From a virus, in IMG/VR virus record IMGVR_UViG_3300034280_000758, positions 1 through 20,960 of that record: a DNA stretch of 20,960 bases; one strand, 5' to 3'. The notes below the pieces were generated by a model. That model had not been told where the DNA came from and made no database searches. It worked only from the letters and a program-made list of their open reading frames with translations. The position numbers were made by a program, and so were the translations under genes. Shown here piece after piece: positions 3 to 18,600 of this stretch (the stretch's first letter is position 1; every line of letters begins with the position of its first letter).

Positions 3-1142
3 CCGTATGCCATTCTCCCGCCCGACTACGAAGTCATCCAGCAGAACATTGCTGGCGTTCTGGACGCTCCTATGGCGGTCAATGCGGACCTTGAGAATGT
101 TCTTCAAGGCAATCTCTCTCAGTACCGCCAATCGCTCAACAAGCCGTCCGGCAATCCCCGAACTGCCACCGAAGTTCAAGCAATCGTCTCGCAGCAATCG
201 GCAATCGGTAAAACGCAGTTGAGCCGGTATTACGCGCAGCTCGATTCTTTCTTCGAGGAACGGTATCGCCGCGCCTCCAATCCGAACCTGAATCCGATTA
301 CCCGCTCGGATAAGGACGCGATTGAATTCCAGCGTCGTTGCCGTGAGCGTGGCGTTCCGCAGCAGGCTATGCTCGACATCGATTACGTCGAGGCGACTCG
401 TACGGTTGGCCAAGGTTCTCAGTTCGCTAAACAACAGCTTCTCGGCTCGCTCCTCGGCCTGCTTGGTTCTCTCCCCGAGGGTGGCAAGGTCAACCTCTTG
501 CAGGACTACATCGCCGCTCAGGTTGGTCAGCAGATGGTTGATCGGTATCTCCCGAGTCAGTTGCAGACTTCGAAGATTCAAGATCAGACCGCTCTTGCTG
601 TCCTTGAGCATTCCTCGCTTCGCCAGGGCAACATGGCGGTCGTCACGGATACGCAGAATCACATCGTCCACATCGACACTCATTTGGCTGCTGCGAACGA
701 GGCGGCTGCCTCTCTTCAGCAGGGTGGCAATCCGCAGGAGATTGTTCTCTTCCTCCAAGGCATCGGTCAGCACGTTCAGGATCATCTCCAGCGCCTGTCC
801 ACCGATCCTACGCGCAGGCCGCAAGTCGAGGCTTACACACAGCAGTTGCAGATGCTTAGTCAGACTATTGAACAGCTTGGACAGTTGATTCAGGAGCAGG
901 CTCAAGCGATGGCGCAGCAGCAGCAGGCAATGGCCATCCAGCAAGGCTCCGATCCTCGTACCGCCGTGATGAATGCGGAAGTTCAGGCGAAAATCGCTCG
1001 CCAGAACGCCGAGACTATGGCCAACATTGAACGTCAGAACACGAAGGCGATGGCCGACTTGGCTCGCCGGAATGCCAAGACGACGGCGGATATTCAACGA
1101 GCGAACGCAACTGCTGAGTCTAACTTGGCGCGTCAGGGATGA
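3..1142 (+). CDS. Phage portal (head-tail connector) protein, C-terminal part
   Basis: The reading frame is open from base 3, so the gene starts upstream of the window; the first ATG at 72 is internal. About 379 residues are visible. Portal proteins form the dodecameric ring at one capsid vertex through which DNA is packaged and ejected. The visible part resembles the C-terminal half of podovirus-type portals: it is Gln-rich and helical, with a block reading KTQLSRYYAQLDSFFEERY, then a helical region, then a polar Gln-rich tail. The last 49 residues form four 11-residue repeats of the pattern (I/L)xRxNAxxxA(D/N), ending in LARQG, which should make a long amphipathic helix. It overlaps the next gene by 4 bases (ATGA). 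The assignment rests on recognised family character, not on a catalytic motif. Confidence 0.75.
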   Translation, partial: PYAILPPDYEVIQQNIAGVLDAPMAVNADLENVLQGNLSQYRQSLNKPSGNPRTATEVQAIVSQQSAIGKTQLSRYYAQLDSFFEERYRRASNPNLNPITRSDKDAIEFQRRCRERGVPQQAMLDIDYVEATRTVGQGSQFAKQQLLGSLLGLLGSLPEGGKVNLLQDYIAAQVGQQMVDRYLPSQLQTSKIQDQTALAVLEHSSLRQGNMAVVTDTQNHIVHIDTHLAAANEAAASLQQGGNPQEIVLFLQGIGQHVQDHLQRLSTDPTRRPQVEAYTQQLQMLSQTIEQLGQLIQEQAQAMAQQQQAMAIQQGSDPRTAVMNAEVQAKIARQNAETMANIERQNTKAMADLARRNAKTTADIQRANATAESNLARQG

Positions 1143-1768
1143 AATTTATGAGCCAGAACGAAGAACTCGTTTCTCAATTCATCGCAGATCAGTTTCCCAA
1201 GATGGGCGGCTGGTGCGATCAACGCAAAGGCTTTGAAATTGCGAAGCTCGTACTCGACAACAAGCCGCAGCGAATTGCTGAGGTAGGCGTCTTCGAAGGT
1301 AAGTCAACGCTCGCTCTTGCCTACGCTTGTAAATTGAACGGAAGCGGCACCGTCTACGCCATCGACTCTTGGAAGAAAGAGGACTGCATCGATGACGAAT
1401 CCGCCGCCAATCAAGAGTGGTGGGCGACGCTCGATCTGGACAAGCACTACGAATCGTTCGTCGAACACACTGTTCGCGCGAAAGTTGTCCGGCACATCCA
1501 ATACTGCCGCATGTCGAGCTGGGATGCTTCACGTTCTCTGCCCGACATGGACATGGTTCATATCGACGCCAACCACGCCGAATGGCCGTCTACGAGCGAT
1601 GTCGTCAATTGGCTCCCTAAGCTCAAAGTTGGTGGCTATTTGATCATGGACGATGTGAACTGGGAATCCACGCAGACCGCTCTCAAGTTCGTTCTGAAAC
1701 GCTGTGAATTTGTCGCCCGTTACGACCTTGCCGAGAGCTGCTTTGCTGTTTATCGGAAGCTGAAATAA
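1139..1768 (+). CDS. Class I SAM-dependent methyltransferase (Methyltransf_24-like)
   Basis: A 209-residue protein with the Rossmann methyltransferase signature: motif I AEVGVFEGKST at about residues 47-57 (SAM binding), an acidic strand end YAID near 73-76, HIDANH at 141-146, and GGYLIMDDVNW at about 165-175. This pattern fits the Methyltransf_24 group often found next to glycosyltransferases, where the substrate is commonly a sugar or small molecule; the substrate here is unknown. The start at 1139 overlaps the portal stop (ATGA). A second ATG at 1148 would remove three residues and sits better behind the weak purine stretch AGGG. It is first in a five-gene cassette, so a role in glycan tailoring is inferred from context. 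Confidence 0.8.
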   Translation: MKFMSQNEELVSQFIADQFPKMGGWCDQRKGFEIAKLVLDNKPQRIAEVGVFEGKSTLALAYACKLNGSGTVYAIDSWKKEDCIDDESAANQEWWATLDLDKHYESFVEHTVRAKVVRHIQYCRMSSWDASRSLPDMDMVHIDANHAEWPSTSDVVNWLPKLKVGGYLIMDDVNWESTQTALKFVLKRCEFVARYDLAESCFAVYRKLK

Positions 1769-1770
1769 CC

Positions 1771-2373
1771 GTGGAAACGGTCGTCATAACGATGCGCGGT
1801 TCGCCGCGTATCCCGCGTTTAAAAGAGAATCTGAATGCCGCTGGCATTTCGGACTATCGGATCTTCTACGGCCTGAATGGAAAGAAGTCTGGCCTGAAGG
1901 CGAGCATTCCGTACGAGGTCGATAATCCCGGCTCAGGATATCTGATCTGCGCCAAGCATGTCGGATGCACAATGTCACATTGGATGCTCTGGAACGCCCT
2001 AGAGTTCGATCCAAAGACCCCCGACATGGTGATGGTGCTTGAGGACGACATTCTCTTCAGGCCGCACTGGCGAGAGACGGTTGAACGCGCGCTGACAAAA
2101 CTGCCGGAGAACTGGGACTTGCTCTATCCAGGATCATGCTGCGCGCATGGCAAGATTAGCCGCGAGTATGACTCCAATTTGTTCGAAGGAATGCCTCTCT
2201 GCACCCACTGTTACATCGTCAGAAAGAAAGCTCTGAAGACGCTGATCGAAACCAACGAGGCGATTTATGCTCCGATTGACTTGCAGATGTATTTCAACAG
2301 CAGGCAGCACCTGAACTGCTTCACCATTTTTCCGCGTGTTGCCGATCAAGAGGGTATGATTCTAGCCGAATAA
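1771..2373 (+). CDS. Glycosyltransferase family 25 (LPS biosynthesis type), copy 1
   Basis: A 200-residue protein. It opens with the strand VVITM and has VLEDD at residues 89-93, the acidic metal and nucleotide-sugar site of GT25 enzymes. GSCCAH (121-126), THCYIV (145-150) and PID (168-170) follow in an order shared with the second GT25 gene here. GT25 enzymes transfer a sugar, often galactose, to LPS or a protein-linked glycan. The start is GTG at 1771, two bases after the previous stop; the first ATG is seven codons in and would delete the opening strand, so GTG is preferred. The protein is shorter than many bacterial GT25 enzymes but seems to contain the core. Donor and acceptor are unknown. 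Confidence 0.85.
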   Translation: METVVITMRGSPRIPRLKENLNAAGISDYRIFYGLNGKKSGLKASIPYEVDNPGSGYLICAKHVGCTMSHWMLWNALEFDPKTPDMVMVLEDDILFRPHWRETVERALTKLPENWDLLYPGSCCAHGKISREYDSNLFEGMPLCTHCYIVRKKALKTLIETNEAIYAPIDLQMYFNSRQHLNCFTIFPRVADQEGMILAE

Positions 2374-2376
2374 AAT

Positions 2377-2967
2377 ATGGGTTCACCATTCAACGGAGAC
2401 ACTTTCATCGAGCAGGAGTTTCTCTACCTCAAGGAACGCTTCGAACTTACCACTGCGGTTGAAACCGGAACTCACGAAGCTGACACAACCGTTTGGTTGG
2501 CCAAGAACTTCCTGAAGACCGTCTCATGCGAGCTTAATCACGACTTGGTTGAGAGAGCTAAGGAGAAGTTTAAGCGTGAGAATGTCTACGTTGAGATGTT
2601 CGAGGGTAGTAGCGATGCCTGCATGAACTGGTTCATCCCGCATCACGGGGTTGGACACGACACAATCTTCTTTCTCGACGCGCACTGGAACGACTACCTC
2701 CCGTTGCTTGAAGAGCTTGAGGCAATCAATCGGTACGACCTGCATCCGGTAATTGCCATCCACGACTTCAAAGAGCCAACCGGACACCTTGGTTACGACA
2801 GTTACAATGGCCATGACATCTGCTTTGGCTACATCAAGGAGAAGTTGGACGCGATTTATCGAGCAAAGACGCTGACGCAAAAGTACGGCTACAGTTACTA
2901 CTACAACCACCCAAGTCGATGCACAGGCGCTCGGCGTGGAATCATCTACATCCTTCCCAACCGATGA
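2377..2967 (+). CDS. Class I SAM methyltransferase-like protein
   Basis: A 196-residue protein. A SAM-binding-like loop ETGTHEADTT lies at residues 29-38, followed by an acidic strand end CEL at 51-53, EGSSDA at 76-81, FFLDAHW at 98-104 and AIHDF at about 127-131. The order and spacing match Rossmann methyltransferases of the FkbM/Methyltransf_24 kind, although the glycine-rich loop is unusual (G-T-H instead of GxGxG), so activity is likely but not certain. It starts three bases after the first GT25 gene in an A-rich context without a Shine-Dalgarno. It ends in an ATGA overlap with the second GT25 gene, which points to coupled translation and a shared product. Confidence 0.7.
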   Translation: MGSPFNGDTFIEQEFLYLKERFELTTAVETGTHEADTTVWLAKNFLKTVSCELNHDLVERAKEKFKRENVYVEMFEGSSDACMNWFIPHHGVGHDTIFFLDAHWNDYLPLLEELEAINRYDLHPVIAIHDFKEPTGHLGYDSYNGHDICFGYIKEKLDAIYRAKTLTQKYGYSYYYNHPSRCTGARRGIIYILPNR

Positions 2968-3593
2968 GAGTCGATTTCGAGAACACACCGACCTTCATCA
3001 TCTCAAAACCTGAGAGCGAGAAGGAGAAGCGATGCGTCAGATACATGAAGTCGTTCGGAATCGACGCGGTTCCGATCTATGGCTTTCGCTCGCATAACTG
3101 CGGCATCTCGACCGACTACTACCACAATCGGGAAAAGGAGAAGGCGAAGACTAAAACCATCGTCGCCGGACTCAGCCACTTCTCTGCATGGTCGGCCATT
3201 AAATGGATGGTTGAGGCCAAACTGACCGATCATCGCACCTTTCTGATCGTTGAGGACGACGTTGAGTTTCTTGACAAGAGCTGGAAGGCGTTGGCCAACG
3301 ATAACCTTCAATTTGTTCCGAACGACTGGCATGTCGTTTACCTTGGAAGCTGCTGCGCCGATCCGATTGAGGATCATGGCTACATTGCCGCCAACCTTTA
3401 CAAGCTAGTTCGGGGCATGTGTACCCACGCATATCTTGTAAACTATGAGGGGGCTTGTAAGCTCCTCGAAACGAACCAAAAGGTTTGGGGTCCAATCGAC
3501 ATTCAGATGCTGGTTGACTCGATGCCTAGGATGAATTTTTACGGAATTCTTCCAAGATTGGCGACGCAGGAGAACACAAACTTGTATCCATGA
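2964..3593 (+). CDS. Glycosyltransferase family 25, copy 2
   Basis: A 209-residue paralogue of the GT25 protein encoded at 1771-2373. The start at 2964 is chosen because it forms an ATGA overlap with the preceding stop; the frame is open another 15 codons upstream. The acidic motif IVEDD is at residues 95-99. The later blocks GSCCAD, THAYLV and GPIDIQM align with GSCCAH, THCYIV and APIDLQM of copy 1. The two copies have diverged strongly outside these blocks, so they probably add different sugars or act on different acceptors. It overlaps the next gene by 4 bases. Confidence 0.85.
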   Translation: MRVDFENTPTFIISKPESEKEKRCVRYMKSFGIDAVPIYGFRSHNCGISTDYYHNREKEKAKTKTIVAGLSHFSAWSAIKWMVEAKLTDHRTFLIVEDDVEFLDKSWKALANDNLQFVPNDWHVVYLGSCCADPIEDHGYIAANLYKLVRGMCTHAYLVNYEGACKLLETNQKVWGPIDIQMLVDSMPRMNFYGILPRLATQENTNLYP

Positions 3594-4948
3594 TGAGAGA
3601 CATCATCCGAGACATCAGCCTCAAAGCACTCAAACGATTTGCAAACGGTGGCGATGGTCATGCCGATCTTCTCATGCAGATCGAAGACCTCCGCAAGACG
3701 CTGGAGATTCGAACCAAAGAGCATGAAGAACATCTGACCGAGGTCCGCGAGGAGCGCGATCATTGGCTTTCACTGTACGACGAAATCAAATTCGCAGCCG
3801 AGTTTCTAATGAGTTACGCAAAAAATGATGTCCCCAAGCTGGCTGAACAGACTGATTGGGAGGTTGGCAAAATCGTTCTTCCGGCTGAAACCGGGACGTA
3901 CTACTTCAATCCAGCCATCATACAGGAGGCAGATGGACGAATCATGCTTTTCGCACGTCGCTGCCGCAACAAGCGCGAGAAGGACGAGGACGTTTACACC
4001 GAGAAGAACGACATCGTTGCCTTCGAGCTGAGTAAAGATTTACGAGCCACAAAAAAGTCGATCCTCCAGCTCACCTCGAACTACCCGAACGAGCAGTTCG
4101 AAGATCCGCGTGTCGTGAAGTTTGGCGACAAGTACGGCGTGAGTTGCTGCACGTTCGTTCCGTTCAAGAGCTACGCGCATCAGGCGATGTTCCTGCTCGA
4201 TAAGCAGTTCCTGAACGTGGGCCGGTTCGATCCGATCTACGGCAACAACTACGCGCAGGCCATGATCAACGATGGCCATGAGAAGAATTGGCTCTACTTC
4301 GTCCACGATAATGCGCCACACATGGTGTATTCGGCCAATCCTCATGTCGTTGTGCGCCTCAATGGGCGGTTAGAGAAGGATGCCGAGTACGTCACCGAGG
4401 AGTTCAATCCGCTCTGGAAGTTTGGCGAGGTTCGCGGCGGAACAAATCCGATTCTCTGCGACGGCCTTTACTGGACCTTCTTCCACAGCTCGCTTCCCTG
4501 GATCAACGGCAAGCGCCGCTATTACATGGGAGCATACGCCTTTGAAGCCAAGGCTCCGTTCCGCATCGTTCGCATGACGACACTGCCGCTTCTTACCGGC
4601 ACCAATCAGCAGGACTGGTGGCCAGGATTGCCTGCGGTCGTGTTCCCGTGCGGCGCTTTCTTTGACAGCGCGAAGAATCACTTCGTCATCTCATACGGCA
4701 TCAACGATGTGGATTGCGGCTACATGAAGCTGCCACTGGCCGACTTGCTTGAGGTGACAAAGGTGATTCGACCGAAGCGCGATGTCGTCAACAAGGAGAA
4801 CCCTCCAAAGCTGACTGACGTTCTCGATCCGATTCCCGAGCGGCATAAACTGAAACGAAACAAGAAATCAAAGTACAATGAACTGGCTAAAAGGCTTGAC
4901 GAAGAACCCGAGCAAACAGGCGAAGCAGGACCTACTGAATCTGCCTGA
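3590..4948 (+). CDS. Five-bladed beta-propeller glycosidase/phosphorylase-like protein (GH130-like)
   Basis: A 452-residue protein. Residues 1-90 are helical and charged, with a probable coiled coil at about 25-65. From about residue 100 the sequence follows the GH130/GH43-type propeller: NPAI (107-110), EDPR (171-174), GGTNP (283-287), FFHSS where the family often has a Tyr/His-Gly site (297-301), FPCG (352-355) and SYGINDVDC (368-376). GH130 enzymes phosphorolyse or hydrolyse beta-mannosides. Here, fused to a coiled coil and next to glycosyltransferases in a phage, it may bind or trim a glycan instead. The C-terminus is Lys/Glu-rich. The start overlaps the upstream stop, and a second ATG lies at 3593. 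Confidence 0.7.
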   Translation: MMRDIIRDISLKALKRFANGGDGHADLLMQIEDLRKTLEIRTKEHEEHLTEVREERDHWLSLYDEIKFAAEFLMSYAKNDVPKLAEQTDWEVGKIVLPAETGTYYFNPAIIQEADGRIMLFARRCRNKREKDEDVYTEKNDIVAFELSKDLRATKKSILQLTSNYPNEQFEDPRVVKFGDKYGVSCCTFVPFKSYAHQAMFLLDKQFLNVGRFDPIYGNNYAQAMINDGHEKNWLYFVHDNAPHMVYSANPHVVVRLNGRLEKDAEYVTEEFNPLWKFGEVRGGTNPILCDGLYWTFFHSSLPWINGKRRYYMGAYAFEAKAPFRIVRMTTLPLLTGTNQQDWWPGLPAVVFPCGAFFDSAKNHFVISYGINDVDCGYMKLPLADLLEVTKVIRPKRDVVNKENPPKLTDVLDPIPERHKLKRNKKSKYNELAKRLDEEPEQTGEAGPTESA

Positions 4949-10410: not shown

Positions 10411-10447
10411 TCTTTTGAATGCTTAGCGTCAGATGATCCGCGAAGCG

Positions 10448-11695
10448 TTAGCTGCAAATGATCTGGGTCAGAGCGCCGGTGCAGCGGCGGAAGATGATCG
10501 TCATGCCCTGGTTGGTGAAAACAGGCTCAGAAGCATGAATGAACTCAGCATAATGCTGCCCCTTCTTCTCCAACGGATCTTCGCAGTCCGTATTGAACTT
10601 GTAGGCACCAGTCACCCACTGCCACTCGCCCATGTAGTTGGTCGGCATCCAGCTCAAATCACCAACGCGGTTCACAGGACGCACGATGTGCGACTTGAAG
10701 ACGTACGGGGTAACGATAAACGCAGCCTCGTACGGAGCGGTCGTCCAGCTCGGGTTGACGCTGAACACCGTACCCTTCGTGCCGGAAGCACTGGTGAACG
10801 GCTGAACCAGCGTGTACTTGCCACCAGCGTAGGTGAAGCGGGGCGGGAACAGATTCGGCACATGCCGGAAGTTCTTAATGACCCGATTCGCGCCGATGCG
10901 CTTGAGCAACTCCGCACCAGCGCCACTGCCCTGATCAGCGAAGCGCAAGTCATCGCGGAACGCGGGGTTGTTCTGAGCGATGCGCTGCGAAGCCTCCAAG
11001 CCGATGTACAGCGGGAAGATCGGACCATCGCTGGAGTAACTGATGAAGCCGGAGCTGTCAGGATTTGTCGCGCCGTTACGGATCAGCGTGGCGGCAGCGA
11101 CATCAAGCATCTCCTGAGTCAGCTCGGAGGTGGACTGATTGAGCGCCTGACCAGCCGATCCGGTCTGAATCCAGGGGAACTCATTCACGCCAGACGGAAT
11201 CGTCTCAACCTGAGTGAAGGACGAGTCGGCCACAGCCTTGATGGCGAACTTGGCGAAGGTGTTCTGGTAACGAGTCTCCCAAGAACGCTGAGCGCGGATC
11301 GAAAGCTTCTCCAAGTACACGCGCAGGAACGCCTCGACGCGATGATCGAAGGTCAGATCGTCCTTACACAGGAGCGGACCTTTGAGGGCGAAACGCTCAG
11401 GACTCCAGGTGACGGCATTGTAGCCGACCGGAACCTCGCTATAGGTGACATCGCAAGCGCCGCCGTTGTCGCCGGGGTTACCGCTCGCAAGGGTAATGGC
11501 CGACCACTCCTCAGCCGCAGTCGGCTCGATGGAGGTGGTGGTGAACGAGGTCTGGGTCAGACCCGTACCCTGAGGATACTCGCCGCGCTCAATCATGTTG
11601 AGCCACATCGAGCGGTACGAGGCGCGTTTATAAACGTCCTGAGCGAGCGACTCGGTAGCCACCGCAAAGGCGTTGAAGACATTAGGACAAGACAT
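10448..11695 (-). CDS. Probable major capsid protein
   Basis: A 415-residue protein, a usual size for an HK97-fold or podovirus capsid subunit. It begins with a helical N-terminus (SLAQDVYKRASYRSMWLNMI), has a long helical block (RVEAFLRVYLEKLSIRAQRSWE), a region typical of capsid spines (LTQEMLDVAAATLIRNGA), an aromatic Pro-rich middle (FRHVPNLFPPRFTYAGG) and a beta-rich end (AYKFNTDCEDPLEKKGQHYA, then FTNQGMTIIFRRC). The order resembles capsid proteins of uncultured phages that I recall, but no motif is diagnostic. Support also comes from its own double terminator, as expected for the most abundant protein. No Shine-Dalgarno precedes the ATG (tttttcatctc). The strand is opposite to portal and scaffold. 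Confidence 0.75.
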   Translation of the reverse strand: MSCPNVFNAFAVATESLAQDVYKRASYRSMWLNMIERGEYPQGTGLTQTSFTTTSIEPTAAEEWSAITLASGNPGDNGGACDVTYSEVPVGYNAVTWSPERFALKGPLLCKDDLTFDHRVEAFLRVYLEKLSIRAQRSWETRYQNTFAKFAIKAVADSSFTQVETIPSGVNEFPWIQTGSAGQALNQSTSELTQEMLDVAAATLIRNGATNPDSSGFISYSSDGPIFPLYIGLEASQRIAQNNPAFRDDLRFADQGSGAGAELLKRIGANRVIKNFRHVPNLFPPRFTYAGGKYTLVQPFTSASGTKGTVFSVNPSWTTAPYEAAFIVTPYVFKSHIVRPVNRVGDLSWMPTNYMGEWQWVTGAYKFNTDCEDPLEKKGQHYAEFIHASEPVFTNQGMTIIFRRCTGALTQIICS

Positions 11696-11698
11696 GAG

Positions 11699-11821
11699 AT
11701 GAAAAATGTAAACCGACGTTATCTGCGTTATGGCTGGCTATCCATCCACCACACGGTGGCTGATTATCCAACCGCTTCCGATGCGGAGCGTCATTGCCGC
11801 TTAGACGGGGGCATTCAATGA
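11699..11821 (+). CDS. Possible 40-residue protein divergent from the capsid gene
   Basis: A short plus-strand frame starting three bases from the capsid start codon on the other strand. The product looks protein-like: basic N-terminus (KNVNRRYLRYGWLSI), then DYPTASDAERHCRLDGG, a pattern seen in small phage proteins where a strand is followed by a (T/S)xxDAERH helix. It continues a long antisense frame through the capsid gene, so it could be chance. No plus-strand promoter or Shine-Dalgarno is visible. Confidence 0.3.
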   Translation: MKNVNRRYLRYGWLSIHHTVADYPTASDAERHCRLDGGIQ

Positions 11822-16870: not shown

Positions 16871-17172
16871 TCGACAAAAAAACATTTTACCAAAACCTAT
16901 CCGAAAAGGTCCTTGTGCAGGCTAGTACGATGCCGCTTAAGGAGTTGATCGAGAATCTCGAATCACTCGCGCACATGATGCATTCACCAATGCTCCGCGA
17001 GGCGGCGAACCGGCTTCGCAACGCTGATTGCGCGGCGACAATACTGGAGGATTCGCTTTTCTACGCGCGGATGTACCGCGACACGACGAGCGAGGGCGAT
17101 AATCGGCGGAGAATGCTGATCGACGATGCGGAGACGGTTTGCTCGATAATCCGAAAGGGAGGGTGCCAATGA
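16867..17172 (+). CDS. 101-residue helical protein of unknown function
   Basis: The start overlaps the previous stop (ATGA). It is helical throughout (FYQNLSEKVLVQASTMPLKE, then LIENLESLAHMMH, MLREAANRLRNA, ILEDSLFYARMYRD), ending in RKGGCQ. Cys residues are spaced along it (near 54, 91, 100). It overlaps the next gene by 4 bases. It has no membrane segment and no recognised family. Confidence 0.6.
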   Translation: MIDKKTFYQNLSEKVLVQASTMPLKELIENLESLAHMMHSPMLREAANRLRNADCAATILEDSLFYARMYRDTTSEGDNRRRMLIDDAETVCSIIRKGGCQ

Positions 17173-17414
17173 TCCGTAATCAATTCGCCCCGCCAAAATT
17201 CAAGATCCAGATCAGCGGCGCGATTGGCTGGTCCGACATGAAGGAGAAGGTCGTCAGCTACCAGACGGTCGAATTCTCCACGCGCAAGGAGGCGGATCGA
17301 GCGGCCAAGGAGCTGAACCCCGGCGAGTACACGCAAGGTCGGATTCGGGTCGTCCCGTTCGAGATGGCGGAGGACTACGATGTTTATCCGGTGGTGGAGC
17401 GGGTGAAAGCATGA
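17169..17414 (+). CDS. 81-residue protein of unknown function
   Basis: The start at 17169 (ATGA overlap) is supported by a clear Shine-Dalgarno GGGAGGG just upstream. It is a beta-rich small protein: FKIQISGAIGWSD, KVVSYQTVEFSTRKEADRAA and a C-terminal YDVYPVVERVKA. The block TVEFSTRKEADRAAKEL is typical of small phage proteins with a strand followed by a helix. It overlaps both the next frame at 17411 (4 bases) and lies just before the methylase gene. Confidence 0.6.
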   Translation: MIRNQFAPPKFKIQISGAIGWSDMKEKVVSYQTVEFSTRKEADRAAKELNPGEYTQGRIRVVPFEMAEDYDVYPVVERVKA

Positions 17415-18265
17415 AGCCATGCATCATCATTCTCCCATCATCCCTTACGTCAGTCTTTGCTCAGGATACGAGGGCATCGGCCTTGGACTCCAACGCTGTA
17501 TCCCAAATCTTCGAACAGTCGCTTACTGCGAGAGGGAAGCATTTGCCATCGCGAACCTGGTTGCGAAAATGGAAAACGGACTCCTGGATTCAGCCCCTAT
17601 TTTCGCGGACGTTCGAACTTTCCCCTGGAGCAGCTTCACTCGACTCATGGCTGGCGGGATTCTCTCATTCGGTTGGCCATGTCAGCCTGTCAGTGTCGCT
17701 GGACAGCGAAAAGCGGTCGATGACGAGCGGTGGTTGTTCGACATCATTGCAGATGGAATCGCCATCATGCAGCCGGGAATGCTCTTCGCCGAAAACGTTG
17801 AAGGATTGCTCACCGCGCGAATGCCAGACGGTTCTAGCGTTTTCGGACACTGCATCGAGAGATTGGAAAGCCTTCATTACCGGGTTACGGCAGGCATATT
17901 CAGCGCGTCTGAAGTCGGCGCACCGCACCAGCGGAAGCGAATCTTCATCCTGGCCAACCGCATCGGCGCGGGATGGGAAGGATTCACCGGGAGCATGGAT
18001 GTATGCGGTGGCGGATCGGAATCGGGAGGATCAGTTGGCCAGAAAGGTTTACGCGGTCGAGTTTGGCCGAGTCGTCCTGACGAACACCGTTTCGCATGGG
18101 AGCCACCCCGTGTCATCGACATCTCGCCTGAATGCTCGCTGGGTCGAGACATTGATGGGAGTTCCGGTCGGCTGGACTATGCCGAGCTGTGCGTCACCTG
18201 TGACAATAGAACGGATGAACTCCGACTCCTCGGTAACGGTGTTGTCCCAGCAACCGCCGAGCTAG
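17411..18265 (+). CDS. Overlapping second-frame ORF across the methylase gene
   Basis: A 284-codon frame, open for the full methylase length in the +1-shifted frame. Its ATG forms an ATGA overlap with the upstream stop, the same coupling used by confirmed genes here. The product is Ser/Arg/Trp-rich, with WLRKWKTDSW near residue 50, RLKSAHRTSGSESSSW around 165-180 and LNARWVETLMGVPVGWT at 240-256. I recall similar blocks in unannotated phage proteins, but most are exactly the shifted reading of conserved methylase blocks, so their recurrence could follow from methylase conservation alone. It may be a real overprinted protein, a spurious frame, or both in part. No function is known. Confidence 0.4.
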   Translation: MKPCIIILPSSLTSVFAQDTRASALDSNAVSQIFEQSLTARGKHLPSRTWLRKWKTDSWIQPLFSRTFELSPGAASLDSWLAGFSHSVGHVSLSVSLDSEKRSMTSGGCSTSLQMESPSCSRECSSPKTLKDCSPRECQTVLAFSDTASRDWKAFITGLRQAYSARLKSAHRTSGSESSSWPTASARDGKDSPGAWMYAVADRNREDQLARKVYAVEFGRVVLTNTVSHGSHPVSSTSRLNARWVETLMGVPVGWTMPSCASPVTIERMNSDSSVTVLSQQPPS

Positions 18266-18303
18266 CGTATCGAACACTTGCGCGAGAACTTTTCGCCGCG
18301 TAG
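17419..18303 (+). CDS. Cytosine-5 DNA methyltransferase (Dcm type)
   Basis: A 294-residue protein with the family motifs in order: SLCSGYEGIGLGL (motif I, SAM binding, 12-24), an acidic motif II-like CERE (37-40), GWPCQP (motif IV, catalytic Cys88), ENVEG (motif VI, 125-129), QRKRIF (motif VIII, 171-176) and GNGVVP (motif X, 272-277). It transfers a methyl group to C5 of cytosine in a specific DNA sequence. The region between VIII and X, where the target-recognition domain lies, is short. There is no restriction partner beside it, so it is probably orphan: self-protection of phage DNA against host restriction, or regulation. The start is 8 bases after the ATG of the overlapping frame. Confidence 0.93.
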   Translation: MHHHSPIIPYVSLCSGYEGIGLGLQRCIPNLRTVAYCEREAFAIANLVAKMENGLLDSAPIFADVRTFPWSSFTRLMAGGILSFGWPCQPVSVAGQRKAVDDERWLFDIIADGIAIMQPGMLFAENVEGLLTARMPDGSSVFGHCIERLESLHYRVTAGIFSASEVGAPHQRKRIFILANRIGAGWEGFTGSMDVCGGGSESGGSVGQKGLRGRVWPSRPDEHRFAWEPPRVIDISPECSLGRDIDGSSGRLDYAELCVTCDNRTDELRLLGNGVVPATAELAYRTLARELFAA

Positions 18304-18558: not shown

Positions 18559-18600
18559 CCACCCCTCCTTGGGTTTTTAATCCCAAGGGGGGTTTCATTT
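18555..18600 (+). terminator. Terminator hairpin after the structured stretch
   Basis: CCTTGGG (18567-18573) pairs with CCCAAGG (18582-18588) around TTTTTAAT, extended through a bulged T by CCCC/GGGG, and the flanking GAAA can pair with TTTC. It is followed by TTTCATTTT. The GAAA at 18555-18558 is shared with the preceding stem-loop, so the two hairpins compete for it. It would close the transcript coming from the methylase gene or a small RNA. Confidence 0.65.

Follow-up and report, generated by a model that had tools for sequence, protein, structure and literature searches.

The small polypeptide of the E. coli methyltransferase M.EcoHK31I (YGGCCR) is reportedly read from an alternative frame within the gene of the large one, and both polypeptides are said to be required in vitro, a finding credited to Lee et al. 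in 1995. M.AquI, another C5 methylase made of two chains, is split after motif VIII, within the variable region. In M.EcoHK31I the large polypeptide carries motifs I-VIII and X, and the small polypeptide alone carries motif IX (PMC3404938). Complete overlap of two C5 methylase products read in different frames has also been described for the S. thermophilus 5093-group phages, phage MM1 and Tn5252 (PMC5601072), and the kind of system considered here is therefore already known. The phage locus analyzed in this report very probably encodes, as judged from its sequence, a two-polypeptide DNA cytosine-5 methyltransferase of the M.EcoHK31I type whose subunits, hereafter alpha and beta, would be read from fully overlapping frames (Table 1). 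The window, by which we mean the whole stretch of DNA analyzed, is a virus record of 20,960 bases in which a RecT-like annealing protein is encoded downstream of the methylase gene.

Table 1. Positions in the window of the overlapping methylase frames, their start region and the motifs read from each frame
Feature	Position	Strand	Remarks
Alpha ORF, methylase frame	17419..18303	+	294 aa; C5 cytosine methyltransferase catalytic subunit (predicted), motifs I-VIII and X, without motif IX
Beta ORF	17411..18265	+	284 aa; frame +1 relative to alpha; read as second subunit
Paired start site ATGAAGCCATG	17411..17421	+	alpha ATG 8 nt downstream of beta ATG
ATGA, beta start overlapping stop of upstream gene	17411..17414	+	
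Small upstream gene	17169..17414	+	81 aa, no family
Alpha motif I	17455-17487	+	
Alpha motif IV, catalytic Cys (GWPCQP)	17671..17688	+	P87, C88 and Q89 invariant in 39 sequences
Alpha motif VI (ENV)	17791-17805	+	
Alpha motif VIII (APHQRKR)	17920..17940	+	same DNA in beta frame begins SAHRTSGS
Beta WPTASARDGKD module, WPTPTARDWKD-like	17951..17983	+	single copy here, several in relatives
Beta motif-IX block LNARWVETLMGVPVGWT	18128..18178	+	identity 0.93 in +1, 0.59 in alpha frame
Alpha motif X (LGNGVVP)	18229..18249	+	other frame, 17 codons past end of beta block

The sequence-only reading from which this work started had described two frames open over about 890 bases. Both frames are open, but the overlap ends with the beta stop at 18265 and not with the alpha stop at 18303. 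Its description of the second frame as 284 codons starting in an ATGA overlap with the upstream ORF was accurate, the beta ATG lying at 17411, and the product is Trp/Ser/Arg-rich as had been said (18% Ser, 7% Arg and 3% Trp). The small upstream gene is probably translationally coupled to beta.

The catalytic features lie in alpha, where all the motifs claimed for the methylase frame were located, namely the C5 cytosine-specific family motifs I, IV (PCQ), VI (ENV), VIII (QRxR) and X (GNxV), and they are conserved in 39 sequences. Alpha matches PF00145 with an E-value of 7e-26 and 91.8 bits (cut-off 22), in profile positions 4-164 of 324 only, that is, over motifs I-VIII; the match to TIGR00675 (74.6 bits) is under the cut-off of 100.65 and is likewise aligned over motifs I-VIII only. 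By fold, alpha matches M.HhaI and M.HaeIII over the large domain, and in the AlphaFold model the large domain and motif X are well modelled, whereas residues 191-273, the recognition and motif IX region, are not. Motif IX (RxLTxxExxRLQGFP) was looked for in the alpha chain and is absent, unlike in the monomeric controls. In these controls, six ordinary phage or plasmid methylases plus that of streptococcal phage P0095, motif IX (RRLTPRECFRLQGFP) lies in frame 0, in most of them as RxLTPRECxRLQGF, and the +1 frame holds 9-35 stops. Dual-frame relatives from Shinella, Salmonella, a Klebsiella phage, a Stenotrophomonas phage, Bacteroides, a cyanophage and a mycobacteriophage also lack motif IX in frame 0, and carry LNPxWVEWLMGFPxGW or a close variant in +1.

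The LMGVPVGWT block of beta fits methyltransferase motif IX in position and pattern. The methylase frame lacks this motif, and beta is therefore most plausibly the other subunit of one enzyme with alpha; the best explanation of its sequence is that it carries the missing motif-IX block together with a WPTP-type recognition-region module. The sequence-only reading was right to regard the second frame as a possible selected protein, but it missed the resemblance of the block to motif IX. Each of the 39 window-type betas has matches to both phrog_1008 and phrog_26627, while the beta block has no match in Pfam, NCBIfam or PDB sequences, and a search of PDB sequences with a beta profile gave nothing even at E=10. 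The structure of beta alone was predicted poorly, with a pLDDT of 42. When canonical IX-X regions were compared by profile with the beta-type C-terminus, motif X aligned firmly and motif IX weakly and over a short stretch (LMGFP to LQGFP in L165). At the profile level phrog_116 is the stronger link of the beta-type C-terminus to canonical methylases, as it covers the latter end to end and also spans single chains and split second subunits.

The sequence-only reading had weighed a conserved overprinted protein against a database-wide shadow of conserved methylases, an untranslated +1 ORF that only mirrors the methylase codons, without deciding between them. The two readings of the DNA are coupled mechanically, DGxxGRLD giving LMGxPxGWT when shifted, and annotation libraries ignore the +1 frame, both of which favor a shadow, but the stop counts, the conservation of the +1 product and the codon-position tests reject it statistically. 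Frequent stop codons in homologues had been named as the result that would count against the second frame; instead, not one of 77 viral loci has a +1 stop between the alpha start and a point a few tens of codons short of the end of alpha, or the end of the contig, and the +2 frame of these loci contains 5-52 stops. These homologues were gathered by the alpha protein alone, and openness of the +1 frame was therefore not selected for. When synonymous codons were shuffled within each gene, the +1 frame of the window gene remained open in 0 of 400 shuffles (mean 3.1 stops), and 45 homologous genes together showed no +1 stop against 263 expected, stops in +2 matching expectation; the suggested avoidance of stops beyond a codon-shuffled expectation is thus borne out. 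Aligning both frames across homologues, as had also been proposed, showed that the constraint from alpha does not account for all the conservation of beta: pairwise +1 identity averaged 0.462 over 39 non-redundant genes, whereas resampling codons under an unchanged alpha protein gave 0.253 (sd 0.002). This excess spans nearly the whole gene and is maximal at WVETLMGLPVGWT (0.93 in +1 and 0.59 in alpha), and for the block LNPRWVETLMGLPVGWT the identity is 93% in +1, 59% in the methylase frame and 28% in the null (z=56). The LMGVPVGWT block had been singled out as the most informative one because its methylase reading looked poorly conserved, and the mean identities (0.93 against 0.59) agree with that choice. 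Moreover, synonymous change in alpha is suppressed. The third positions of alpha codons, and with them its fourfold sites, are second positions of beta, and in the more diverged pairs (L009, L011, L014, L017 and L018) the alpha fourfold-site divergence was 0.10-0.13 against about 0.2-0.9 in neighbor genes of the same loci, a comparison in which phage mosaicism makes single neighbors unreliable and in which some neighbors are equally conserved in the closest pairs. The ratio of third- to first-plus-second-position changes was about 0.7-0.9 in alpha and 1.5-2.2 in neighbors of similar protein identity. Together with the conserved paired starts described below, these statistics indicate that the second frame encodes a genuine protein under selection; that it is a methylase shadow we regard as extremely improbable.

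How the two frames are started bears on whether they give one chain or two. The beta ATG lies 2, 5, 8 or 11 nt before the alpha ATG or GTG in 72 of 74 loci, in forms such as ATGTG, ATGACATG, ATGAAGCCATG and similar, and starts of the AUGUG type can initiate both frames in E. coli (PMC9841429). Conservation of these pairs points to two independently started proteins rather than to a product of programmed frameshifting, in which translation would start in alpha and shift to +1 after motif VIII, giving a single chain with motif IX. Such a shift would complete the enzyme in the related split genes (Wile gp75/gp74, Phlei), and single-chain versions do occur. However, beta owns an ATG adjoining the alpha start and is conserved over its full length, including the catalytic-domain region that the shifted product would not use, and motif X remains in the alpha frame, so that two opposite shifts would be required; we consider frameshifting highly unlikely. 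Nearly as unlikely, in our estimation, is that selection maintains beta as an overprinted protein for a role outside methylation, such as that of a regulator or an anti-restriction factor. It is true that the long N-terminal half of beta is conserved and matches nothing beyond beta-type profiles, and that its N-terminal 150 residues have no counterpart in single-chain relatives, so that this part may do something else. Nevertheless, the motif-IX block complements the defect of alpha, M.EcoHK31I offers a precedent, and in bacterial genomes the beta motif is found with a methylase gene. The fusions also argue against an unrelated job: in a 729-aa protein from a bin (L178) and in the mycobacteriophage proteins Wachhund gp69 and Shauna1 gp67, two families occur in one frame, that of the methylase (phrog_363) N-terminally and that of beta (phrog_1008, E down to 9e-73 in single chains) C-terminally, which is Rosetta-stone evidence for beta as part of a methyltransferase. 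The beta-type block of these single-chain relatives lies in the catalytic frame, directly before motif X. A further single-frame relative (L165) matches PF00145 over 2-323, running through motif IX; its sequence comes from a metagenome bin and may contain a frameshift error. In an archaeal-labelled contig of a Euryarchaeota bin (L168, 1789-2900) an M.AquI-like split was observed, in which alpha stops after motif VIII and the +1 ORF bears WPTP, motif IX and motif X.

For the second frame as part of a methyltransferase, a parallel was found in cellular genomes. A query built from three C-termini was used to scan 84,980 bacterial and archaeal species genomes for the beta motif without consulting the methylase frame; of the 208 relatives found, 80 were kept, and in 54 of these 80 the motif lies in +1 inside a C5 methylase ORF. 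These 54 loci contain no +1 stop, against 105 expected, and 367 stops in +2. The +1 frame is open across the whole methylase domain in 33 of them; most of the remaining loci show it open from about 50-65 codons onward. The hosts include Pseudomonadota, Bacillota, Actinomycetota, Spirochaetota, Planctomycetota, Acidobacteriota, Verrucomicrobiota and Bacteroidota. The M.EcoHK31I locus itself, sought in E. coli genomes by DNA similarity, was not found, but other dual-frame methylases were present there in prophages. A prophage homologue in E. coli PT62 (L184) pairs an alpha of about 245 aa with a +1 frame that is open. In E. coli EC20 (L185, 1189-2358) frame 0 of such a gene is open throughout, and RefSeq annotates it as two incomplete pseudogenes; on this one case examined, such enzymes may be miscalled elsewhere. 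In a prophage copy in E. coli PCP07014 (L183, 1201-1962), annotated as a pseudogene, alpha is interrupted by an in-frame stop, and beta has a stop close to the same position.

We propose that alpha would fold as the large catalytic domain, with SAM binding, the PCQ cysteine, ENV and QRxR, plus the motif X helix, and that beta would contribute motif IX and part of the small, target-recognition domain. Ribosomes may initiate at both neighboring starts, probably by reinitiation after the upstream ATGA or alternatively by ambiguous initiation, and both chains would thereby come from one message. The two chains are then predicted to assemble into one active C5 methyltransferase, presumably a heterodimer, which most likely methylates phage DNA at a specific site and may thus protect it from host restriction. 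As the beta block resembles ordinary motif IX in position and pattern, it is possible that the beta reading near the 3' end is the older one and that of alpha the newer. A wider proposal, which we hold to be rather doubtful as a whole, is that of a widespread class of cytosine methyltransferases, spread over many bacterial phyla and phages and encoded twice on the same DNA, in which both frames contribute to target recognition, tandem WPTP modules, read in two frames, pair up for recognition and determine specificity by their number and sequence, and subunit stoichiometry is fixed by the paired starts.

A same-strand overlap that is nearly gene-long across viral homologues, and that is paralleled in bacterial phyla, makes this an unusually strong case of dual coding, the more so as both products probably belong to one enzyme. 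'Hypothetical' protein families with WPTP and LNPxWVEWLMGFP would be explained as methylase subunits, and Pfam and NCBIfam hold no beta model. Elsewhere in the window, 1139-4945 (+) encodes a methyltransferase (Methyltransf_24), two glycosyltransferase-25-like proteins and one GH130-like protein in genes linked by short overlaps, possibly a phage glycosylation or surface-modification module. A 462-codon open frame at 10433-11821 (+) is antisense to a 415-aa ORF without a family match at 10448-11695 (-). Downstream of the methylase gene, a terminator-like hairpin (CCTTGGGTTTTTAATCCCAAGG followed by a T-rich stretch) was read by eye at 18567-18600 (+).

Among the described systems, the window locus resembles M.EcoHK31I in that a large subunit with motifs I-VIII and X is accompanied by a second polypeptide with motif IX, encoded in an alternative frame overlapping the first. 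It differs in being phage-borne and in its beta, which is near the length of alpha (284 and 294 aa), extends over the region of the catalytic domain and begins at a paired start, upstream of alpha; no restriction enzyme was recognized among the scanned neighbors of the window methylase. M.AquI and the split mycobacteriophage pairs Wile gp75/gp74 and Phlei gp64/gp63 are similar to it as C5 methylases over two chains, the second with motif IX. Unlike in the window, where motif X stays in alpha, these second chains carry motif X as well, and the two genes share no more than about ten to twenty bases. Wachhund gp69, Shauna1 gp67 and the L178 protein share the catalytic domain, PTP repeats, motif-IX block and motif X with the window locus, but have everything in one frame, with stops in the others. 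The streptococcal type (Tn5252, 5093 group), with its own motif IX in the main frame and an internal +1 ORF, also differs; in phage P0095, compared directly, motif IX (RKLTPRECWRLQGFP) is kept in the main frame and the +1 ORF lacks the LNPxWVE block. In P0095 (L181, 1583-2002) and in a Dorea phage (L089), SLSDILEEQVEDKYFLS-like peptides were seen in +1, and the corresponding LVDILEKDVDESYYLS of Staphylococcus phage IME-SA4 (L097) lies in frame 0; this seems to be a second, different recognition-region segment that swaps frames. As far as the literature consulted shows, what the window locus and its relatives add to these known systems is an overlap that runs the length of the gene and has paired starts, the statistical proof that both frames are selected, and breadth.
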